NCBI GenBank assembly: GCA_021432635.1
Contig: MU270015.1
Location: 1,225,762-1,289,761, forward strand
Direction of reading: 5' to 3'
From: Thozetella sp. PMI_491
Taxonomy: Eukaryota; Ascomycota; Sordariomycetes; Chaetosphaeriales; Chaetosphaeriaceae
DNA length: 64,000 bases
A model generated the notes under the pieces. The model saw nothing but the letters and a program-made list of their open reading frames with translations, ran no database searches and was not told the DNA's origin. Of the stretch, positions 2,254 to 27,100 are shown in pieces. Position 1 is the first letter of the stretch, and the number at the start of each line of letters is the position of its first letter. Made by a program: the position numbers and the translations under genes.

Positions 2254-5103
2254 ACATGAGTGAAGAAAAACCTCTGCTAGTTAATGAATAGTAGCTGTAG
2301 CCTCACGTACACCGTTAGGCATATAGGTACACTTATCTCAAATGCTTCACTGCTTTACAGCTAGATACAGACCCGATAAAGCAGGTATTCAAGCGCACCC
2401 CACGATCGTCCAAGCAGCTCTCGACGTGTAGCTAGGTGACAAGGTGACAACCATTAATTTCATCGGCTCTTGTAGCGCCTGCAATTCGTGCGAACCGAAA
2501 ATCTGGCAGTTCGAAGGTAGGGTGTTACTAGTATACAAGAATGTGTATGTGCCTGCGAAGAGGCTTCTTTTGGTTTATTGTCGACAATCTAGGCGCGCCC
2601 TGTTTCGTATACTTATCTTGCAAAGGTAGGCAGTAATTATTCAGGACCTCGCTTAGGGATACATAGAGTGCTATGCCCAAAGCTTTCTAATTGTGGCATA
2701 CCGTTCTTTCATTTGTGGGAATAGATAACTGGGTAACTGTCCGTTGAGGTTCTGCAGTCATCGTACTACCTAGCCCTAGCTGATGCAACTCTTGTCTATC
2801 GAGAGATGTGAAAATAGGCTTCCTAGGATGAACTCCCCCACTCTTTCTTGCCTCGTTTTCATTATGGTCCTTTCCCCTCCGCATTAGAATCCTAATGTGG
2901 GCAAGGCCACTGCTAATCGTAACCGAGCCGAAATTGTTAGATAAAGCCTTGGGCGAGACATGTGCGCCTCGATAGTATGGCTGTGCTCTGAAAGCCCGCG
3001 CTACAAGGTACAAACCCATCGGGTCTTGGATCTTCTTCTTGCGCCGGGCCAGAAAGCAGCCGCTTCTGACAGGAAAAGGAAGAAAGCAATGCCCATCTAT
3101 GATTCCACCGCCAACTCTTGCTTAGTTCCGAAAAACTCGTTGAGTCTTGAGCATACATAGCGCACCGCCAATGAGTTCGCCAACAAACGTATGCATCATC
3201 CTAACTTAGGGGGCACTTGATCTAACTTTCCTGGTAGCGCTGGACCTCATCGCCGCCCTGCTTGCCCCTTTTGTTCTCCTGCCCGCCCCCACCCCCGACC
3301 GCTAACTAGCGCTACAGAGCATGTTTAGCTTGTGAACAGAAACCCCGACCTTGCCAAAAGGTGCGAAAAGGAGCCACGCTGCTTGGCAGAGGCTAGGTTA
3401 ACTTATTAAACTAGGGCTAGAAAATTCCTAGGTCATTCGATCACTCGGCGACTAGCTTCTTTAGTGGGCAGCCCCTTTTAAGGCTTTTGCTGTGTTCATG
3501 CCATCGATCGAATTGCAGCTGGCAGTCTCACCCATGCAATATCAGTATCTATACCGTTCCCCTTGCTCTCGAATGCCGACCCATGCAAATCGGACTTGTC
3601 CAGCATGTTCAAAGGGGCTTTCGACCGGTGTGCTCCTCGTACCCTGGCTTGCCATACACACCGAGGGCGGCACTCCCTGTTTCAATCCGACTGGCTCGGT
3701 CAAAATCGACGATGACCCCCGCGTTCTCCAACAGCTCATAGGCGAATAGCGTTGTTTGGCCGTGCCAATCAACCGTTGCGTGTACCTCTAGCGTGACATT
3801 GAGCCGGGGTTTTCGCTTGACCAACGCTGTCAAGCCCAGCACCCCAGTCCGCAACACGCGGCACAGTCCATTCAGCGTTGCTCCTGTCGCTGGTGTTGGA
3901 CCAAGCCACCTAGCCCCCTGCCAGAACTTTTGCTGCCACGCATGCTTTAGTGCAATGTACGGAGTATTACACAGTACGGATTCTAACGTAGTACCACCCG
4001 CATGCCACCACCTCGCCAACCAGTATTTTCGGCAGCCAGTGGCAGGGGAAAGCCCATCTGTAATGCGCTCAGGCACGGTTGGCACCCCTGATAGACCTCT
4101 TCGAAAGGCTAGCCCTGAGGCGTTAGCTCTGACAGACGTACAGTAAGCGGACTGGGAATGGCTGCGGCGCGAAAGCAGTTGGTTGTTAGGCCGACTCGAG
4201 AATTCTGAAGCCGATCAAGTAGGTACTTGGCAAGTCCGCCTCCTTTACCGAGTGCATAGCAACAGTCGTAGCAGCTGTGGCAGACAGGGAGCATACAGAG
4301 CAGGCAATAATCTATCCAAGCTCGCCCCCGACCACATTGGGCGGGTATATCTTCGTATGACGCGCTTGGCCGCTTGCATCCACACAAACTCATCGTATGT
4401 AGCCGAAACATCCGGGTTAGCCGACCGGCACACTACCACTCACATGCAGGCCGGGGATGCACGAGGCGGCACAACCAAGATGTCGGAACCATTGGGAGGT
4501 CACCTCTGCCGGGCCTTCACGAGCAACTCGTGGTCAGCCTCAATAGGCGTAGATCACCAGCTGCACCGGCGCCTGGAGGCTCGAGCGCACAGTCTACTGT
4601 TCTTAGTCGCCTCCCACCCCCCCTCCCAACCCGCTTTTGGTTTCTTGGCGCGATGGTTGCCAGTCGAGCCAGTCCCCTTTCCACAGCCCTGCAGCTTCTG
4701 ATGTGCATTCGAGTTTGCTCGACTTCCAGGGCCCCCAGTTGTCTCGTCCAGGGCAGCCTGTCAGCTGTCAGGTTAGCCTCAAGCCGCGTCGTGTCCCCAT
4801 GCACTCGTGTCAGGCAGCGGTCAGGGATGAGAAGACCCGAGCGACAGACAGCGCGGGGAAGGCTGTGGGTTCTTTAGGAGCCGGCCTCTCCCAAAACACA
4901 ACGCGGGTGGGTCTCTTGTTCAATCTCTGGCCCCCTAAACTGCCATTGTCTCGAACATCACCTTCCTGCACCTTCTTGGTGTGAGGTAGTCGTCGAATAC
5001 CTCTCGTCTGTCTTTGGCTCGAAGTGCCAGACAATACTGACCTGGGCCTTTTCTTCGCCTCAGGTTTCCGGGCCACGGTCCCGGAAGAGGCGAACTGAGC
5101 GCC
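2254..5103. other. Intergenic stretch, no recognisable gene
   Basis: About 2.85 kb between the NLR and the rhodopsin-like gene. The longest open frame (3609-4085, minus, 158 codons) has no recognisable motif or conserved start context. The stretch after about 4900 is the upstream region of the gene at 5104. I see no RNA gene or mobile element with recognisable ends. Confidence 0.5.
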
Positions 5104-6527
5104 ATGGCGTCGAACACAGCCAGTTCCGAAGGGGTTGACCTGACGGAAGACCGGCGATATGTCACCTTCGTTCTCGTCGGCGTATTATTGCCCTTCACAA
5201 CTTTCTTCGTGGCATTGCGGTTCTACTCCCGCGGATACATGAGCCGCAATCTTGGGATTGATGACTGGATGTCGGGATGGTCAATGGTGCATCCTCCCAA
5301 TTGCAGCTGTCCTTTTATCTGTGCCGTCGTCTAATGTGGGAGCTAGATCATGACCATTATTACCGGAGCACTGATGGCGGCGGAGGCCACAACAGGTCTC
5401 GGTCGCCATAGAGCCTCTCTGACGGACGAAGAGTATCGTCAGTACATGAAGGTACGTTGATTCTCGCTCGCCTCTATGTAATAGATCTGTATCCAGATGG
5501 ACAGCCCGAGATTGATGATTAGTGTAGGTATTTTATGTCGACGTCATTTTCTATATTGGTGGCCTCGCCTTTATCAAACTACATGTCCTTCTGCAGTACT
5601 TCAGGCTTTTCTCCGTCAAGATGAGGCGTCTCACGATCTGGGTTACCGTCGTGACCTGCATCTGGGGCGCGGCTAGCACGCTGGCGGTCATATTTGTGTG
5701 CTGGCCTGTTGAGGCCTTCTGGGACAACCGTGTACCGGGAGTGTGCATTCCGCTGGAGCCGCAGTGGTATGCTAACGCAGTTGGTGAGCGGTACTCTGTC
5801 CGTGTTAGGTTCCCCATGGTTTGAGGGCTGACGTGACGTTCAAGGCAACATCATCACAGATCTGATCATTTTTGGCCTTCCGATTCCGATGCTCTGGCGC
5901 CTAAACCTCGAACGTCACCAACGTATCTCCCTCGTCGCCATCTTCGGGTTGGGATTCGTTACATGTTGTATCTCTATTGCCCGAATCGGGTTCCTCCACC
6001 TCGTCGAAGAGGACGAGACGTTCCACAACACGGAAACTTCGGGATGGACAATTGGCGAAATGTGTCTAGCGATGATTGTATCTTGTATTCCCACCCTGCG
6101 GCCCATCCTCCTGCGACTATTCCCAAGCCTAGCGCACAGCCAACACAGCAGCGAACCCCCGGCGCTCCCCACCATCAAAACCTTTGGCGGCGCATTTGTA
6201 CGAAGCTCCCGGCGCGAGAGGAGCCAAAACAGGGACGCCATCTCCAGCGGACGTCGTGGTAGTAGCACAGTTGAGCTCACTAAGCTTGATGACGCGGAGG
6301 TAGGAGTGACGAAGAGCCAGTCTGATAACGAATCTCTTCCCCGAGAGCGCTCGCAGACAGACACTCGAGGCACGGATGAGCTGCTTGGGCTCAAGATTGG
6401 GACTGAGACAAGGGTCCATTCGGCGGCTCCCTCGCGGTTGATGGGCGCCACGTCGCCGACAGCCAGCATACGGCCGGAAATTCGAGTCCAGAGAGACATC
6501 ACGCTGAGCACGAGCTCATCGGCGTAG
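5104..6527 (+). CDS. Fungal rhodopsin-domain integral membrane protein (PTH11/SAT4-like)
   Basis: Four exons by eye: 5104-5286, 5347-5451, 5528-5783 and 5845-6527, giving 408 aa. Introns are 60, 76 and 61 bp with GT-AG ends. The protein shows the family pattern: N-terminal membrane span (FVLVGVLLPFTTFFVALRFY), the LGIDDW motif, TGLGRH after span 2, a Cys-containing loop (PVEAFWDNRVPGVCIP), NIITDLIIFGLPIPMLW, and a last span ending SCIPTLRPIL. A Ser/Thr/Arg-rich cytoplasmic tail of about 130 residues follows. The family is related to PTH11-type putative G-protein-coupled receptors but most members lack proven ligands. There is no CFEM domain before the spans. It sits in the plasma membrane by analogy, and the function is inferred only from the fold. 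Confidence 0.88.
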
Positions 6528-7377: not shown

Positions 7378-8141
7378 CTACCACAGGTGGTTACCCTTGT
7401 CAACCACATCAACCACCTCGGAGTCTTTCTATAGATGGACGAGGGTCAGTAGTTTCTTAGATTGGGTGTGTATGGAGCTACCCAGAGCATGTTTTAAGAG
7501 CAGGAGTTTAAGTGGTAGTGATATTTGATGAAAATTGCAATAAAGAACACCAGGAAGACATACCCATAGGTGGTTACCCTTGTCAACCACATCAACCGCC
7601 TCGGAGTCCTTCTGTCCATGGCCGAGCGTTAGTAAATTCCCAAGGTGAATGTTTATATAGCCAGATGGAGCGTTTCTCAAGAGCAGGAGCTCAAATACTC
7701 TCGATATTCGGTGAAAACGGCAAAAAAAGAACAAGAGAGAACGTACCCATAGGTGGTTGCCCTTGTCAACCACATCAACCACTTCGGAGTCCTTCTGTTT
7801 ATGACCGAGTGTTAGTAAATTCCTAAAGTGAAAGTTTATGTACCTAGATATCTAGAGCGCCTCTCAAGAGCAGGAGCAGAAATGTTCCTTATATTCGACG
7901 GAAACGGCAATAGAGAGCAAGGGAGGACGTACCCATAGGTGATTACCCTTGTCAACCACCTAATCTAATCAGCCGATGTTTTTTGAAGTTTGTTAGGATG
8001 GCTATTTACCTCTACTTCGACTGCGTCCTTCGACAGTCTGTTGTGAGCTACCGCCTCCCGAGACTCTGTCAAGCCCGCAGGTAGAGCAGCGACAGCAGCA
8101 GGGACTAGGCAGAGAACCTTTGCGATATCGAAGGCTCTCAT
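7378..8141 (-). CDS. Secreted tandem-repeat peptide precursor, candidate UstYa-associated RiPP precursor
   Basis: Exons on the minus strand: 8141-8010, 7959-7933, 7794-7747, 7611-7564 and 7428-7378 (with stop), giving 101 aa. Exon 1 encodes a clear signal peptide (MRAFDIAKVLCLVPAAVAALP). The mature part has four 16-residue repeats: first KDAVEVEVVDKGNHLW, then three copies of KDSE(V/A)VDVVDKGNHLW. Repeats 2-4 each sit on one phase-0 exon of 48 nt; repeat 1 is split by a short 50-nt intron. Donors are GTAAAT, GTACGT, GTACGT and GTATGT. Acceptors are TAG or CAG, and introns 2 and 3 have TTACTAAC branch points. The design (signal peptide plus identical repeats, with a UstYa gene about 2.1 kb away in divergent orientation) matches fungal dikaritin-type RiPP precursors such as those of ustiloxin or phomopsin. 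That link is inference. Unlike those, there are no KR/RR sites, only single lysines flanking GNHLW. It could instead be a secreted repeat protein that is not cyclised. The gene model is strongly supported by splice signals; the product is not known. Confidence 0.8.
7429..7563 (-). other. Introner-like intron, copy 3 (precursor intron 4)
   Basis: 135 nt, donor GTATGT, acceptor CTATAG. Its start (GTATGTCTTCCTG) and end (AAGAAACTACTGACCCTC) are the best matches to the subtilisin intron (GTTCGTCTTCCTG and AAGAAAGTACTGACACTC). Confidence 0.75.
7612..7746 (-). other. Introner-like intron, copy 2 (precursor intron 3)
   Basis: 135 nt, donor GTACGT, branch point TTACTAAC, 3' end CTCGGCCATGGACAG. It has no stop in the coding frame, so retention would insert 45 residues without a frameshift. 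Its 3' end closely resembles the end of the subtilisin intron at 26313-26445 (CTCAGCCATGGATAG). Confidence 0.75.
7795..7932 (-). other. Introner-like intron, copy 1 (precursor intron 2)
   Basis: 138 nt, donor GTACGT, branch point TTACTAAC, acceptor AACAG. Related along its length to the introns at 7612-7746 and 7429-7563. Contains an in-frame stop, so retention would truncate the protein. Confidence 0.75.
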
Positions 8142-10258
8142 TTTGAAGCAGTTGATGGTTTAAAAGTAGGTATAGCTGCTGTAGGTGTGACTGAGGGTGC
8201 GTTGGTGTATTAGTCTGACTTCTCGCCCAAGGCCAGGAGATTCGATCTTTTTATACCCCGGCGCCGTGAATTGCTTGATCGCCAGATTCCCAAGCGCCAC
8301 AACGGCTTCGTAGCGAGCTGCACTGGCTTGAGGTGTCTCCCGGACCATGTGATTGGAAGGTCTTCCCTCGAGACATTAGCAGTCCATCAACATGGGGCAC
8401 CATGCACCGCTCGATTATCGGGTATGGGCAAGTAGAGTAGATTGTCTGGTTTGGGGAGGTGTTTACATAAACTTTGTTATAGGCAGTGGGTAGTACAAGA
8501 GCAAAACGGGAAGACTTTCCCAAGGCGGAAGGTGTGGAAAATTGCAGCTATGGACACTAGTTCAGCTTTGCTATAAGGGGGAAGCGAAGGTCTTTTTCTT
8601 TTAGGAAAATAGGTAAATAATATTAAATAATCATTAAAACCAGGCCTCACATTCGCTAGTTGCGTTAATAAATATTCGCTTTTTGATGTTCCGGTGTGAA
8701 AAAGTTTAACTCTACTGCAGTACAACTCCCTCTACAGTTGGGATCGATATCCACCGAGCGTGCCGTCGAGGGTTATCCGTCCGAAATGGCGACCTAGCTT
8801 ATTATCCTCCAAGCTACCAAGTTACTCAGCCATAACGTAGCCTTTGTAATCCAGTGGCCTGTGCGACACGTTGCTACTACAGACACATGACTCAGCTGGA
8901 CTACACTAGAAGGCTCAAGGGCGGCTTGTACCGCTAATACACCAACAATGTTGCCAAACGAGTCCAGATATACTAAGCAACATTGCTGATCAGGGAGCCA
9001 GAGCCGATACTTGAAGTTGAAGAACGGGTTGCGGTTCGGCTTGTGGAGAGCATGTCCGTCTTGGGAGTAAGTTGTGCTTCTGCCGTCTGCCGGGACCCAA
9101 CGGTTTGTCTATTGCGGAATGAGTTAAAACCGGAGACGTTGCTGACTGCTTTGAGATGGAGGCTAGCTACGCTGCGTGCCAAGAACATATCCCGTAAGCT
9201 GGGTATTAGAGGTGGGACTCACGGTAACGCGCTCCAATACCCAGCCAAAACGCTATCAGGTAGGTTTCCTATGCTCGCATAGCAAGACATCCGGTAACGC
9301 CCGAAAGTGGGTGATCCAGAAGATGAACTATGTCTATATACAGTCGCATCGCATGTTTAGCCCTTGAGTGTCCCTGCCCTAGCATATCGTGAATTGCCAT
9401 TACAATGGCGGCTGGAGATTGTAGGATTATTACACAAGATGAGCGCAGTACCTGAAATCTCCGACAATCTAGTATTTAGACCATGGAAAGTACCCTGTAT
9501 CTGGACCCCAGGGCAATTGTCAGGGGTGTAGGCCTTGGCCAGATTATAGCCCGCCCCCTAAAGTTTGTTATCCGACCCTTTTGCCACCTATAATTGCCTA
9601 TTTTCTACAAGGGCGTGTTACACACTAATGCGGCTAGTCCGAGAATCAACATTCTTTAGCGCGCCTCGACACTGATATGTAGTCCAGTGAAGCCACCGGG
9701 TGTGCCATAGTCTGATCTCGCCTGTGTAATTCCAAAAAGGGCATATCTATTCATGCGTGTGTGGCGCGTCGGCGCACCGCAAGCGATCCGATGTGGTGTT
9801 CGCCTAGGTTAAGCATTGTTTCGGAAGGTATGTTTCCACGACTTTCCTATTTTTCGTTAACACCTGCCCTTGGCCGGACCCACGCGTGCTCGTATTTGCC
9901 CCTGCGACGCTATTGCACTAGAGAAAGACGGATCTGGAAATATTGCTGCGCGAGGCACGCTCGTTTAATGGCGCGAGTCCATGGCTGAAGGATTGTGGCA
10001 TCAAGAGAGCGCAAAGCTTGCCATATCTCTTGAACTAGTCCCCAGCCTGTCATTGGGTGCGGCTCACCCCAGGCTCAGCTTGATTGGTCCCCATGCGCCG
10101 TCCTGACAACCTTATGGGGTAAGAACTCGCAAAATACCTTGCCCACCTGGCCATGGCTCATGCTCTATATGCGCGTTCTATGCCTTGCTATTCTGGTTTC
10201 TCTTCTCTCGGTGACCTAAGTTCCGCTCGTCTTTCCGTCAACCCCGCTGCTATTCACC
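8142..10258. other. Divergent intergenic region between precursor and UstYa gene
   Basis: About 2.1 kb shared upstream space of two divergently transcribed genes, so a plausible place for joint regulation. No further gene is recognisable; open frames here are short and lack conserved features. Confidence 0.5.
8247..8255 (-). promoter_or_regulatory. TATA box of the precursor gene
   Basis: TATAAAAAG on the minus strand, about 105 bp upstream of the ATG at 8141. This would place the transcription start roughly 75 nt before the ATG. Position and match are good; function is inferred. Confidence 0.5.
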
Positions 10259-11235
10259 ATGGCGCCGACGGAGGCACGCAGATATAGACCACTGAAAGGA
10301 TATGCGGACGACGACGACGATACATCTGCGAGCGATCGTCAACAACCATATTTAGCTTCCCCGTGGAAGAACCGCCGAGTTCAAGTGGCTGTTGCAGTCC
10401 CTTGGGCCGTGGTCGCCTTGCTAGGTGTGCTAGTCGGCGGGTTATGGCGCGGGAGCACACGAAGCTGCCAATCTGCCCAGATTCTCTACTGTGAGGGATT
10501 TCCTAGAATATATGGGTTGAAATGCTGCGATAGAGCTAACGGCGGTGTTCCAGCGCCGGCACAGTCGGTCGTCGAATACAAACCCACGCGGTTCACCCAG
10601 GGCTTCGAAGACGACAAATCACCACTCCAAGGGCCACCGAATGAAATGCGAGATCGTGCCTGGCAGGATCTCTATGGATGTGAGAAATAATATCTATTAT
10701 TCGTGTTTGCCGACTCGCTGACGTCTACAGTTGGCATTTTGGGCGTTTCGAGGGAAGAGGCTGCATTGATGCCGAACAGGACGGGCAGGCTAGCCGGCAC
10801 GACCGACAAATATTTCGCTGAGCTCGATGTATTCCACCAGCTACACTGTCTCGTGAGTTTCCCTTCGTCCTTGCGCTTGGAAAGAACTGATCGGTGGCCT
10901 TCCGGCCCTAACAGAATATCCTGAGAATGTCGCGCTACCCGGAGCACTACCGCCAGCAAAACACGCCCGAGGCGAATGAAATTCTGTCCTACTTCGACGA
11001 TGAACATATTGAGCATTGTATTGACACGATCAGACAGTCTATCATGTGCCATTCTGACATCACGCCGCTAGTGTACCAGTGGGATGAGACGCAGAAGCGG
11101 ATGAGAATACACGGAAATGTGGTCCACAGCTGCCGAGATTTTGACAGCATCAGGGATTGGTCAAGAGAGCGTAGCATCGTGGAGTTGGGGTTAGAGCTGG
11201 ATATGTCGCAAAACCTTATGGATGATACGCTCTAA
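10259..11235 (+). CDS. UstYa-family (DUF3328) oxidase-like protein
   Basis: Three exons: 10259-10679, 10731-10852 and 10915-11235, giving 287 aa. The introns are 51 and 62 bp. The start is in a strong context (TTCACCATGGCG). After an acidic N-terminus there is one membrane span at about residues 41-63 (VAVAVPWAVVALLGVLVGGLW). The two family hallmark HxxHC motifs are both present: HQLHC at 176-180 and HIEHC at 212-216. Proteins of this family act in fungal RiPP pathways (ustiloxin, asperipin, phomopsin), where they catalyse oxidative ring closure of the core peptide; some members act in other pathways. Here it lies divergent to a tandem-repeat secreted peptide gene, which makes peptide modification in the secretory pathway the leading idea. 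No second UstYa gene, tyrosinase or methyltransferase was found beside it. Confidence 0.9.
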
Positions 11236-11577: not shown

Positions 11578-13271
11578 TCATGCATGGTCGCCGTCTTCCG
11601 TAGAACGGACTGAGCCGGCCCTGGGCGGCTTACTAGCCCGTCGTATCCTGCTCCTACTGCGCGTCTCTTCTCCCCCGTCAATCCAGTCGCCCATCTCGAT
11701 ATCCCTTGACGCATTCAGCGCCGGTCCGTCGTCTCGGTGCGGCTTGCCTAGATCTAGCTCTATCACCCCGGGTGGCAGCGGCGGATGCTTCTGGCCCGAC
11801 GGTGGCGCGACCCCCTGGAGATAGGGGCTTCGCTGGGACGATGGCGTCTGGAGCTGCACGTGGCGGGAGGTTCGGCGCTGTTGGCGGCGCCGGCGCAGAC
11901 AACGAGGCATGAAAGTCTCGTACATGGTCTGGCGCAGCGTCTTGGTGGTGCCAAACACGATAAAGAGAAGAAGCCCTGGGGTCACAGCGGGCATATATCC
12001 CAGGATGGCGTCGCTGGCATAGCCGGAGGTCAGGTTCGGGGCTGGCGCCTGCGCGTCCTTGGTGACGTGGTCCTTCTCTTGGATGTGTGTTATGAGGGTG
12101 ACGAGGATGAAGACCCAGAGCATAAGGGCCAGGATCGACAGGCGCGTCACCAGCCAGCCGTCGTATATGCTGTGCGGGTTGAGCGACATGCGCGCCCAGC
12201 TAACATTGGTCCCGGTGTTAGTCTCGATCGGGCGGCTGCTATCCGGGTCGGGCCGACGCCGACGGCGACGGCGCTCCCGATCTCGACTGCTCTGCAGCCA
12301 GGTGACTATCCCCTTCGCCTTGTACTGCAGCCAACCGCGCCACCGCTCCACGGTCCGCTTGGCCTGCACGTATTGCACGACGATGGCTACGAAGAAGCAG
12401 AAGCTCAGTACGCAGCTGAGCACGCTTAGGCCGTTCGCGATGACCATGTAGGCCGGCCAGTTGCGCTGCACGGCTGGGGCCTGCAGCAGGGCCACCGAGA
12501 TTGCGGCGAGGAGGATGGGGAGGATCTTGGCGTATAGGTTGAAGTGTTTCTCGATGCGCTGGTGCGTTGCCCAGAAGCCGTAGACCGTTCCAGCGATAGA
12601 CATGGAGCTTTGGGGCGCCTAGTCAGCCAGGCCCCGGTAGGAAGGCATACCAGCACGGAGGGAAGGAGGGCTTACAAGGAGAGGGCCATAGCGGCGGTGG
12701 CATTGTTGGTGAAGAGGCCTGGAACCATGCGTCAGTCGAGCGGAAAGCTAGGGAGCTGTCAGGGTGGCGCATACGAATGTTGGACAAGACCAGCCGGAAG
12801 CCAAAGTTGCCGTTGTTGAACCAGGCATTGGCATCGTTCGGGTTCGCTTGAATGTGGTGATGCTGCTCCCACATGAACTCTTCCCAGTGTCTATCGCCCG
12901 GTGCTGTGGTTAGCCGGGACTCGGGTGCGGCTCTCGGTAGACATGGGCCGGGGTGGCGGGATCGGCGCGAGGGGTCAACACTCACTCATATTCGTACATC
13001 TGCTGCACGATGCTGCAAATCGTGCATAGCAACGTGAGGTAGCCGATGAGGGCGATGTCTGCGGGCCAAATCGTTAGTTCCCGGAGGGATGCGGCAGTTC
13101 GCGGGCGGTGCGAGCGAAGGCAGGCGGGGGCGGCGCAAACTCACAGCTCAACCTCTCGTGATGCACCCACGTGAGCCATAGCATCAAGACATTGGCGAAC
13201 AGGCACAGAAAGGTGTACAGAATGGTGATGAGCGCTGAGACCCAGACACCAGGCGGCAGCTGAGCCCACAT
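11578..13271 (-). CDS. Multi-span membrane protein of unknown function (about seven spans)
   Basis: Five exons on the minus strand: 13271-13145, 13058-12986, 12890-12775, 12718-12676 and 12607-11578, giving 462 aa. Frames and GT-AG junctions are consistent throughout. Hydrophobic spans appear near VSALITILYTFLCLFANVL, IALIGYLTLLCTICSIV, the ALSFSMSIAGTVYGFWA segment, ILPILLAAISVALL, VLSCVLSFCFFVAIVV, LSILALMLWVFILVTLI and VTPGLLLFIVFGTT. A basic, Arg-rich cytoplasmic tail of about 110 residues follows (RRRRQQRR after the last span). I do not recognise the family. The topology recalls a receptor-like seven-span protein, but no diagnostic motif is seen. It is convergent with the UstYa gene, about 340 bp apart, so a transport or sensing role in the peptide cluster is possible but unproven. 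Confidence 0.75.
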
Positions 13272-24183: not shown

Positions 24184-27100
24184 CTACGGAGTGTATGGCA
24201 GAATTGTGAGACTAGGTGTCTGCCACACCTGCCAGCCAGAAGAGAGGTTCGGGTCACCATGTGGAAGTAATCCGGCAAACCGCATACTAGAGTTGGTACC
24301 AAAGTCAGCCATCAGCGAATGATACGCGCCGAGACTAAGCCATGAAGCCCTAGCCCGTGGCGGCTAGATGGAAGGAGATATCGGCTTACATGTACGTGCC
24401 AGGGGCAATGTAACTCCCGTTCGCAAGCTTGCCGAACCACATAAACTGCTGCGCATTCTTCAGGCTGGGATAGAAGGTGCGCATTTCATGGTTGAATGGG
24501 AAGCTCGAAGTGCTCTCTTTGTTCATCGTAGAAGGATCAAAGATGCCAGCACTGGTGTCTCCATAGGTAGTGGCTGATCCAACATACTTGTTCTGTCCTA
24601 CGGCAGGAGGGTACTTCCATTCGGATTCCGTCCAGTGGGCGGAAAATATCTGCCAGCAGAAGACAAGACTCGTTAGATAGAAATCTAAAAGAGGGAGGAC
24701 TGGTAGATGATCAAGAGGGCAAGGCAGAGTGACAAGATCCACTTACATCCCAGCGAAGCTCCCTGACACTGTATTTTAGTTGCAGAGAGATATTCGGATA
24801 GCTGGCCACACTCGGTGACAGGTCGAAATTATAGCTAGATGAATATCCAGGTTAGCACGTACAAGCCCGAGAAAACACGGTCGTCCTACTGGAAACAGGA
24901 AACTCACGAGTGATACTGTTGAATGTTCTCGCGGTTTGGCCCACTGATCTGCTTGGGGAATCCCGGGGGGTAAAGATTGCCCGAGATCTGTGCGCGGAGG
25001 TCAAAGGCTGCCCCCAAATACGGTATAGAGAGCTTGTCCCCGTTGCTGCCCTGAATGACGACCTTGCCGTTGTAGATGGGTAGCAACGATGCGGTAACCC
25101 CCGTAGGTGGAGAAAACGTGAAGGTGGCCGTCTTTTGCTGTCCTGCTGCGACGCTGAATGTACCTTTAGGGAGCACCACCGCCGGGACATAGGACTTTGG
25201 CACTAGCTCGGGCAGCGATGCGATGTAGGCAGGGTTAAGCGCCGACTGCATGTTGAAGCCGCCCGCCGGCTCCAGCGTGAAATTGTACGTAACGGTGGAC
25301 GTACCCGTGTTCGCTACCACGACGTTCCACGTACCGTTCAGATGCGCTGTGTCGTTGAGCGCGATGTTGTCGAAGGTCAGCTGAGTCGTCGTGCTCACGA
25401 CGCTCCATGCATCCACTAGACCGGAGCCAACTTGTGCTACTGGTGCAAACGCCCCATAGTTGATCGGGATTGTTCCACCAAGTGGCGTGAGCGTCTGCCA
25501 GGGCAAGGAGCGGCCGCTAGCTACCAGGCGGTGCTTGATCCTGTAAGCCGTCTGGTTCCCCCACACGCTTCTGCCTCCATGCGCCGATATATACAGCGCA
25601 GCGACACCAGCCATCATTGGAGTGGCCATCGAAGTTCCACTCAGGACCGCCCAGCCCTCGTTTAGATAAGTGGAAAAGATGTTGCCTCCGGCAGCGGCCA
25701 CGTCCGGACGCGTGCCCAGGTCGTAGGCAGGACCCCAAGAGGTAAACTCGGACGGCACTCCTCCAGAGATAGAAGGAATACCCTCTCCAGGACGAATGGA
25801 CCAGTCCACAACTGGACTGCCGCCAGCTGCATACGCGCTCACGATTGCCTCGCCGTCGGCCTTGCTGATGGCCAATATGTTGCCGCGGGGTGATGGCACA
25901 ACGGGTGTCTTTACGAGACTGGAGTCGTTGTTGTAGACCAGCAGGATGAAGGCGCCACCGGCTAGGGCGTTATTCATCTGGGTACTGATATCGCACTGCG
26001 CGGCCTGTTTCACCAGGACGATTGTTGGGGCTGAAGGAGCACTGCCAGCGGGGAGGGGTGCGCATGCTTGGGCATCATCCGACGTATTGAGCGATATTGG
26101 AACGACCGGCCAGACTGCGATTATAGCCAGGGGAGCCGGCTGTGAATTCGCGACGAAATAAGAGAAGCCAAAGCTGCTCGTCTGTCCATCTATGGTGGAG
26201 CTGACCGTCCCGCTAGGGAGGATGACCACGGGAGCGTCCATGGATGCAACCGCGATGACGTCCTTGCCAGCAGAGGTGTCGCTGATGCTGATGGGGCCGT
26301 CGTCTCCCGAGTCTATCCATGGCTGAGTGTCAGTACTTTCTTGGAGTGGATGTTTATGTAACTAATCGGAGCAGATCTCAAAGCAGGGGCTTTAATACTC
26401 CGAATGTATGGAGAAAGTGGGAATCAAGAACGCAGGAAGACGAACTCATCGCGGCTACCGTCACAACCACCCCGGCTGCCATATACCGCGCAGACAGCTC
26501 GGCTAGACCGTCATCCGGCCAGCCAGCGCCACCGCCCAGGCTGGCAGTAATGATATCACAGCCTTGGTTATACGCTGCGACGAAGGCGGCGAGAATATTA
26601 TCACCGGTTGCGCCACCAGTCTGTTCACAGTCTCGGTAAGTTCGGGCTACATGCTTCTAATGGCGCTTGAGAGGAGAAACGTACAGCGCCAAAGACTTTG
26701 TATGAGTAGATCGTTGCGTCCGGAGCGATCCCAGTGAATCTACGCTCGAATTAGTCGAGAGTCCTGTTTCGCTTCGCAAGGGACAGATCACGGGAAAACC
26801 TACTCGTCGCTCTTCCCGGCGATGATTCCTGTTACGTGCGTTCCGTGCCCGGCTTGGTCGTTGGGAATCGGATCCGGAGCCGTAGTGGCAGGGTAGTCTA
26901 TACAAGCTTATTAGCTCTAATTCATGCGGCCCAAGAGCCATGTTTGCCAGTTGGAGGGCAAAAGTACTCACCATCTCCCACAAAGTCATAGCCACCCGCG
27001 ATCTTACAGCCAGTACCGAAGCATCCTCCCAGCTATCACTATGTTAACGATGACTGCCCTCAAAATGATTCATCGGCCAGGAAAGCTATAGACTTACAGC

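Follow-up and report, generated by a model that had tools for sequence, protein, structure and literature searches.

Can two neighbouring genes, one for a repeat protein and one for a UstYa-type oxidase, form a pathway for a ribosomally synthesized and post-translationally modified peptide (RiPP) when the repeats carry neither dibasic sites nor Tyr or Phe? The question is raised by positions 7378 to 11235 of a 64,000-nucleotide stretch of the fungus Thozetella sp. PMI_491 (GenBank assembly GCA_021432635.1, contig MU270015.1, positions 1,225,762 to 1,289,761 of the forward strand; hereafter the window), where a gene for four repeats ending in GNHLW stands head to head with a UstYa gene. The dikaritins, or ust-RiPS, are marked by a signal peptide, a repeated core, dibasic Kex2 sites, a UstYa protein with HxxHC motifs and a cyclic product crosslinked through its side chains, with Tyr as the crosslink partner or Phe as in victorin. 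Our analysis indicates that the locus probably belongs to this known fungal peptide family, as an unusual member whose core ends in tryptophan, and we lean towards reading the pair as a minimal RiPP pathway of dikaritin-like type, with probable release at lysines and an array that grew by duplication of an exon together with an introner-like intron.

The precursor gene (minus strand, 7378-8141) on paper comprises five exons totalling 306 nt including the stop, which would give a protein of 101 aa, and its introns of 50, 138, 135 and 135 nt all have GT-AG ends and all fall between whole codons (Table 1). From first to fourth the 16-residue repeats read KDAVEVEVVDKGNHLW, KDSEVVDVVDKGNHLW, KDSEAVDVVDKGNHLW and KDSEVVDVVDKGNHLW, each ending in GNHLW; repeat 1 is interrupted by the 50-nt intron, while repeats 2, 3 and 4 each occupy one exon with 48 coding nt. 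The array is also seen as a DNA repeat with periods of 183, 183 and 186 nt, detected independently of the gene model. Because five of the six differences among the exon copies are silent, against an expectation of 24% (P 0.0038), the repeat exons are coding and constrained as protein. The frame contains neither a frameshift nor an internal stop, and its splice signals are intact. The signal peptide was judged from the hydropathy of the precursor start, where the stretch VLCLVPAAVA reaches 2.65 on the Kyte-Doolittle scale, compared with 1.80-2.94 in 11 other precursors. A first-pass annotation of this DNA had proposed just such a 101-aa protein carrying four near-identical 16-residue repeats, and both the five-exon reading and the silent-site bias bear it out. 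Intron 3 has a length that is a multiple of three and is free of stops in the precursor frame, so that translation would run on through the intron if it were retained.

The UstYa gene (plus strand, 10259-11235) has three exons encoding 287 aa and starts 2.1 kb from the precursor. All three exon products match PF11807, two of them beyond the curated cut-off and the short middle exon at 24.4 bits versus 25, and both HxxHC motifs are present, as HQLHC and HIEHC, which confirms the divergent UstYa-family gene of the first-pass annotation. The model is one of six open splice combinations, picked on its splice signals and backed by matching introns in a relative elsewhere in the genome (our locus C14). 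Within the spacer between the two genes, positions 8400-10200 occur once in the genome, which speaks against repeats there.

The most unusual point of the locus is that its cores are separated by introners. When the genome was searched with the precursor locus, at least 42 matches were obtained besides the locus itself, all of them inside intron 2, 3 or 4 to within three bases; the figure is a lower bound, the best 40 of 51 candidates having been scored. Among the 42 aligned elements the unadjusted ends are GT in 39 and AG in 38 (hand count), and with the ends adjusted to nearby splice signals 26 are exactly 134 nt long. Excision leaves at least 50 open codons on either side in 30 of the 42, compared with 25.6% of 1,223 random removals, and in each of eight tested hosts, chosen from the 42 for their long frames, a Pfam family is matched across the spliced junction (MFS, tannase, sugar transporter twice, AMP-binding enzyme, OPT transporter twice and amino acid permease). 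Introns 2-4 are members of a dispersed ~134-nt family of introner-like elements, a point that goes beyond the earlier reading. Elements of this kind, near-identical GT-AG introns in unrelated genes, are described from fungi in excerpts of PMC4457414 and PMC9860276, and related introns in PMC8469720 (apart from the word search of two main texts given below, all papers are cited here from excerpts). Folding supported no structure, with z -1.33 for the consensus and z +0.6 to +1.4 for the three window introns.

A single UstYa-precursor adjacency is weak evidence, because the genome has about 100 UstYa loci: its 72.3 Mb hold at least 149 exon-level matches (the best 150 of 203 candidates were scored), which give ~100 loci when grouped by eye. 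We read 26 other UstYa loci (152,673 bases), namely eight with several UstYa matches, five top-scoring, ten hand-picked down the score list before their flanks were seen and three near kin of the window UstYa, in stretches of 3.5 to 9.9 kb beyond which precursors may lie. A scan for 5-residue words occurring at least three times flagged 13 of the 26. One of these (L079) was dropped for want of a clear coding frame, and one that the scan did not flag (L081), where two ENWNAAAWSN copies separated by one KR stand at the end of the locus, was added, leaving 13 of 26 with a repeat precursor; within the batch chosen before flanks were seen the count is 4 of 10. As controls, none of 39 introner loci (90,717 bases) was flagged with two or more words, two of them having one chance word each, and among 12 window tiles placed clear of the precursor-UstYa pair (52,800 bases) one was flagged, owing to an ankyrin gene at 1150-1689; the control loci are shorter than most of the UstYa loci, the total lengths being similar. 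Because precursors stand at 13 of 26 UstYa loci versus one ankyrin match in 143.5 kb of control, the pairing is probably meaningful. Tandem repeats of other kinds were also noted. The ankyrin-repeat frame consists of near-identical 105-nt units and appears recently amplified, L079 has repeats of 134-141 nt at 3395-3862, adjoining its UstYa gene, and at L053 a 63-nt unit occurs five times at 9364-9640, near a UstYa gene and distinct from the KR precursor, which lies at the opposite end.

Most of the UstYa-linked precursors of this genome follow the dikaritin plan. Their repeats read GYQTG-KR (C36), YATG...GKR (C20), DILYNNPAGWG-KR (C7), FGAPKYW-RR (C67), YGVDTFGAI-KR (C84), DYIKEG-KR (C2), SYIWPAG (C18), VYGAHQLK (C63), DTAYAILKER (C26), DPLYSDGDLGFYP (C9), AENWGT-KR (C14), GIYWGK...EKR (C3) and ENWNAAAWSN...KR (C28). 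The window precursor is unusual among them in having neither a dibasic site nor Tyr/Phe; C14 lacks Tyr/Phe and has KR, and C18 shows no dibasic pair in the part seen. Against the dikaritin pattern as a whole, the window gene offers a putative signal peptide, near-identical repeats and a UstYa neighbour with both HxxHC motifs, but strict membership fails on two features, the dibasic Kex2 sites and Tyr/Phe. The dikaritin-type pairing claimed by the first-pass annotation therefore stands as a pairing, and not as a textbook dikaritin.

How the pathway would work can be set out only conditionally. The repeat protein would enter the secretory route, where UstYa could oxidise the repeated core, most likely at the Trp or His of GNHLW, and proteases cutting at single lysines (DK-GNHLW-K) would then set free a short modified peptide in several copies. 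The array would have grown when the introner-like element, lying just behind the Trp codon and between whole codons, was duplicated along with its 48-nt exon.

Several results weigh against this pathway. There is no KR, KK, RR or RK anywhere in the 101-aa precursor, whose repeats meet at W-KD; no repeat contains Tyr or Phe; a whole-genome search found no paralogue of the precursor; and the neighbouring frames scanned, which cover part of the window, include no tyrosinase, S41 peptidase or methyltransferase. The window repeat was compared with 13 repeat entries, drawn from 12 other loci with C14 represented twice, and resembles none of them significantly, the best p being 0.05 for the first C14 unit and 0.25 for the regular one. 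In a kingdom-wide survey (PMC7329392), repeats adjoining DUF3328 genes show no enrichment of Trp (20.5% vs 24.5%), whereas Tyr is enriched (65.6% vs 38.2%). The excerpts of that survey also include in silico predictions of Trp- or His-bearing repeats adjoining UstYa (DUF3328) genes, so a core without Tyr would seem uncommon, not unheard of; the His/Trp core noted by the first-pass annotation in place of Tyr/Phe is thus upheld, though it is not unprecedented. In favour of the pathway, a single UstYa suffices for asperipin-2a (PMC7329392), and mushroom repeat proteins expressed heterologously gave KEX2 cleavage after single arginines and many lysine-ended products from one repeat protein (PMC9769878). 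A lone lysine ahead of the core, as in the window precursor, also occurs in C36 (DK-GYQTG-KR) and C14 (LK-AENWGT-KR).

We consider it unlikely that the repeat protein instead yields an unmodified secreted peptide of signal- or pheromone-like type, or a small secreted protein, and has its UstYa neighbour by coincidence. The abundance of UstYa genes, the half of the UstYa loci read (13 of 26) that showed no precursor and the lack of Tyr or Phe in the repeats would all be at home with coincidence, as would the survey figures for Kex2-processed repeat proteins, of which 22% have a DUF3328 neighbour and 78% lack one (PMC7329392). The excess of precursors at UstYa loci over the control speaks the other way, and in the same source a DUF3328 neighbour is all but absent, with three exceptions, beside repeat proteins of the yeast alpha-factor and fungal pheromone types. 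Highly improbable, in our view, is a decaying RiPP locus that has lost its Kex2 sites, with KD where KR is expected, and no longer makes its peptide. The missing dibasic site would suit decay, and the three window introners are more diverged from their family (66-82%) than most members are mutually (median 80.6%); the unbroken frame and splice signals, the silent-site bias of the repeats and the intact UstYa motifs all tell against it.

The minimal RiPP pathway could also be right and its history different, the introners having been inserted independently, one per repeat, into an already repeated gene. Introns 2, 3 and 4 are each nearer some dispersed copy (81%, 82% and 75%, respectively) than one another (66-78%), intron 4 stands apart from the other two in the tree, and parallel introner gains have been reported in fungi (PMC4457414). 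Yet independent insertion would have to strike the identical codon boundary three times. Introns 2 and 3 pair weakly (94/52), and the tree test does not reject a single clade of all three (p 0.306). By a hand count of 10 silent sites, about 2 to 4 differ between the exons, divergence of the same order as that of the introns. We therefore rate independent insertion as distinctly unlikely and favour growth of the array by exon-plus-introner duplication, because introns 2-4 share position and phase. The one-core-per-exon layout as such does not need introners, because the C20 precursor (L058, 6860-7480), the second of this design, carries each YATG core on an exon of its own, its introns measuring 55 and 64 nt.

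By spliced-alignment score over the alignable parts the nearest relatives of the window UstYa are C14 (372), C7a (349), C8 (344), C36a (338) and C7c (320); identity is 39.9% over 183 residues for C7a vs 37.1% over 210 for C14, and the best single-exon matches in the whole genome are C7 (102.5 bits), C28 (83.3) and C14 (76.9). A first tree, from which C28 was left out as wrongly modelled and in which C7c and C8 were absent, joined the window, C14 and C36a (87/90), followed by C7a and C67a, with C3 outside among other long branches. A second tree, which took in C28, C7c and C8 and omitted the long rows C36d and C56, gave a group of the window, C14, C36a, C67a, C7a, C7c, C3 and C8 at 100/99 support. 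In a third, with C36d and C56 restored, C56 enters the group (95/99), and a test does not reject keeping the eight together (p 0.346); none of the three trees includes the fragment C36e.

Trp occurs in all five known precursors at loci with a member of this group vs three of nine elsewhere (C18, C28 and C20). The Trp of C20 sits before its YATG core, and p is 0.010 for 5/5 vs 2/9 with C20 uncounted and 0.028, by hand, for 5/5 vs 3/9; it weakens further if the membership of C3 is doubted, and the idea was noticed post hoc in the same data. The C7 and C67 loci additionally carry UstYa genes outside the group. Of the loci picked as near kin, C28 has a precursor with Trp, yet its UstYa falls outside the group, and C8 and C7c show no clear precursor in 4 kb each. 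A putative Trp subclade of UstYa is accordingly a lead only. A bolder proposal, which we hold to be doubtful, is that a UstYa subfamily acts on tryptophan instead of tyrosine, and that the window locus is a stripped-down example in which a His/Trp core is released at lysines without Kex2 dibasic sites and its copy number is driven by an introner, which makes every core a separate exon whose duplication leaves the frame intact. The features of the pair and its surroundings are collected in Table 1.

Table 1. Features of the precursor-UstYa pair and neighbouring genes, in window positions.
Feature	Position	Strand	Basis or remark
Precursor exon 1: hydrophobic start, leader, first half of repeat 1	8010..8141	-	open-frame and splice reading
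Intron 1, 50 nt	7960..8009	-	outside the introner-like family; no match to dispersed copies
Precursor exon 2: VVDKGNHLW, second half of repeat 1	7933..7959	-	splice reading
Intron 2, 138 nt, introner-like element	7795..7932	-	genome search, alignment of copies
Precursor exon 3: repeat 2, KDSEVVDVVDKGNHLW	7747..7794	-	splice reading
Intron 3, 135 nt, introner-like element	7612..7746	-	genome search, alignment of copies
Precursor exon 4: repeat 3, KDSEAVDVVDKGNHLW	7564..7611	-	splice reading
Intron 4, 135 nt, introner-like element, further diverged than introns 2 and 3	7429..7563	-	genome search, alignment, tree
Precursor exon 5: repeat 4, stop codon right behind Trp	7378..7428	-	splice reading
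Spacer between the divergent genes	8142..10258		
UstYa exon 1	10259..10679	+	PF11807 match, splice reading
UstYa exon 2, HQLHC at 10835-10849	10731..10852	+	PF11807 match, splice reading, motif read in sequence
UstYa exon 3, HIEHC at 11005-11019	10915..11235	+	PF11807 match, splice reading, motif read in sequence
Fungal rhodopsin-domain gene	5528-6524		upstream of the pair
Frame without Pfam match above cut-off	11581-12618		downstream of the pair
AAA-lid frame, CHAT frame, TPP enzyme			beyond the 11581-12618 frame
Subtilase	24907-26361		13.7 kb away; conceivable protease
P450	near 34.3 kb		

Peptide searches in fungi rely on Kex2 sites and unbroken repeats, so that precursors of the window kind should be missed. 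If the Trp reading is true, a new residue would be added to UstYa chemistry. The introner link would illustrate concretely how a mobile intron can influence the number of repeats that a gene product carries. The 27 loci seen in this genome include at least 14 with a UstYa-linked precursor, which makes it a good test bed. In the open-licence literature searched, as far as its excerpts go, we found no description of an introner-split RiPP precursor or of a Trp-modifying UstYa, and the words intron and exon are absent from the main texts of PMC7329392 and PMC6339444.

Set beside known systems, the window precursor shares with the dikaritins ustiloxin, phomopsin and asperipin-2a (background in PMC12048977 and PMC9233826) a hydrophobic start, several near-identical repeats and an adjoining UstYa with HxxHC motifs, and departs from them in its lack of Kex2 dibasic sites and of Tyr/Phe, in the Trp at the repeat end and in having one repeat per exon. 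Like the KEPs (the Kex2-processed repeat proteins of PMC7329392) it appears to be a secreted repeat protein, and some KEP types adjoining DUF3328 genes have HH or W in place of Y; a search defined by Kex2 sites would nevertheless not recognise it. Within its own genome a parallel in core is the C14 precursor (L064, 3300-3760), with a Trp-only repeat and one UstYa found nearby, itself one of the closest relatives of the window UstYa. In contrast to the window gene, C14 has seven AENWG repeats bordered by KR in one open frame with no introns between the repeats. The likeness of its repeat to that of the window is not significant, and a whole-genome search gave C14 no convincing paralogue (one other match, E 1.18). 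The C20 precursor likewise places a single core on each exon, but its introns lie outside the introner family and it has KR sites and a Tyr core. Finally, introns 2-4 resemble known fungal introner-like elements in their GT-AG ends and in having near-identical copies in unrelated genes of one genome, and differ from them in that three copies here separate the repeats of one peptide precursor.

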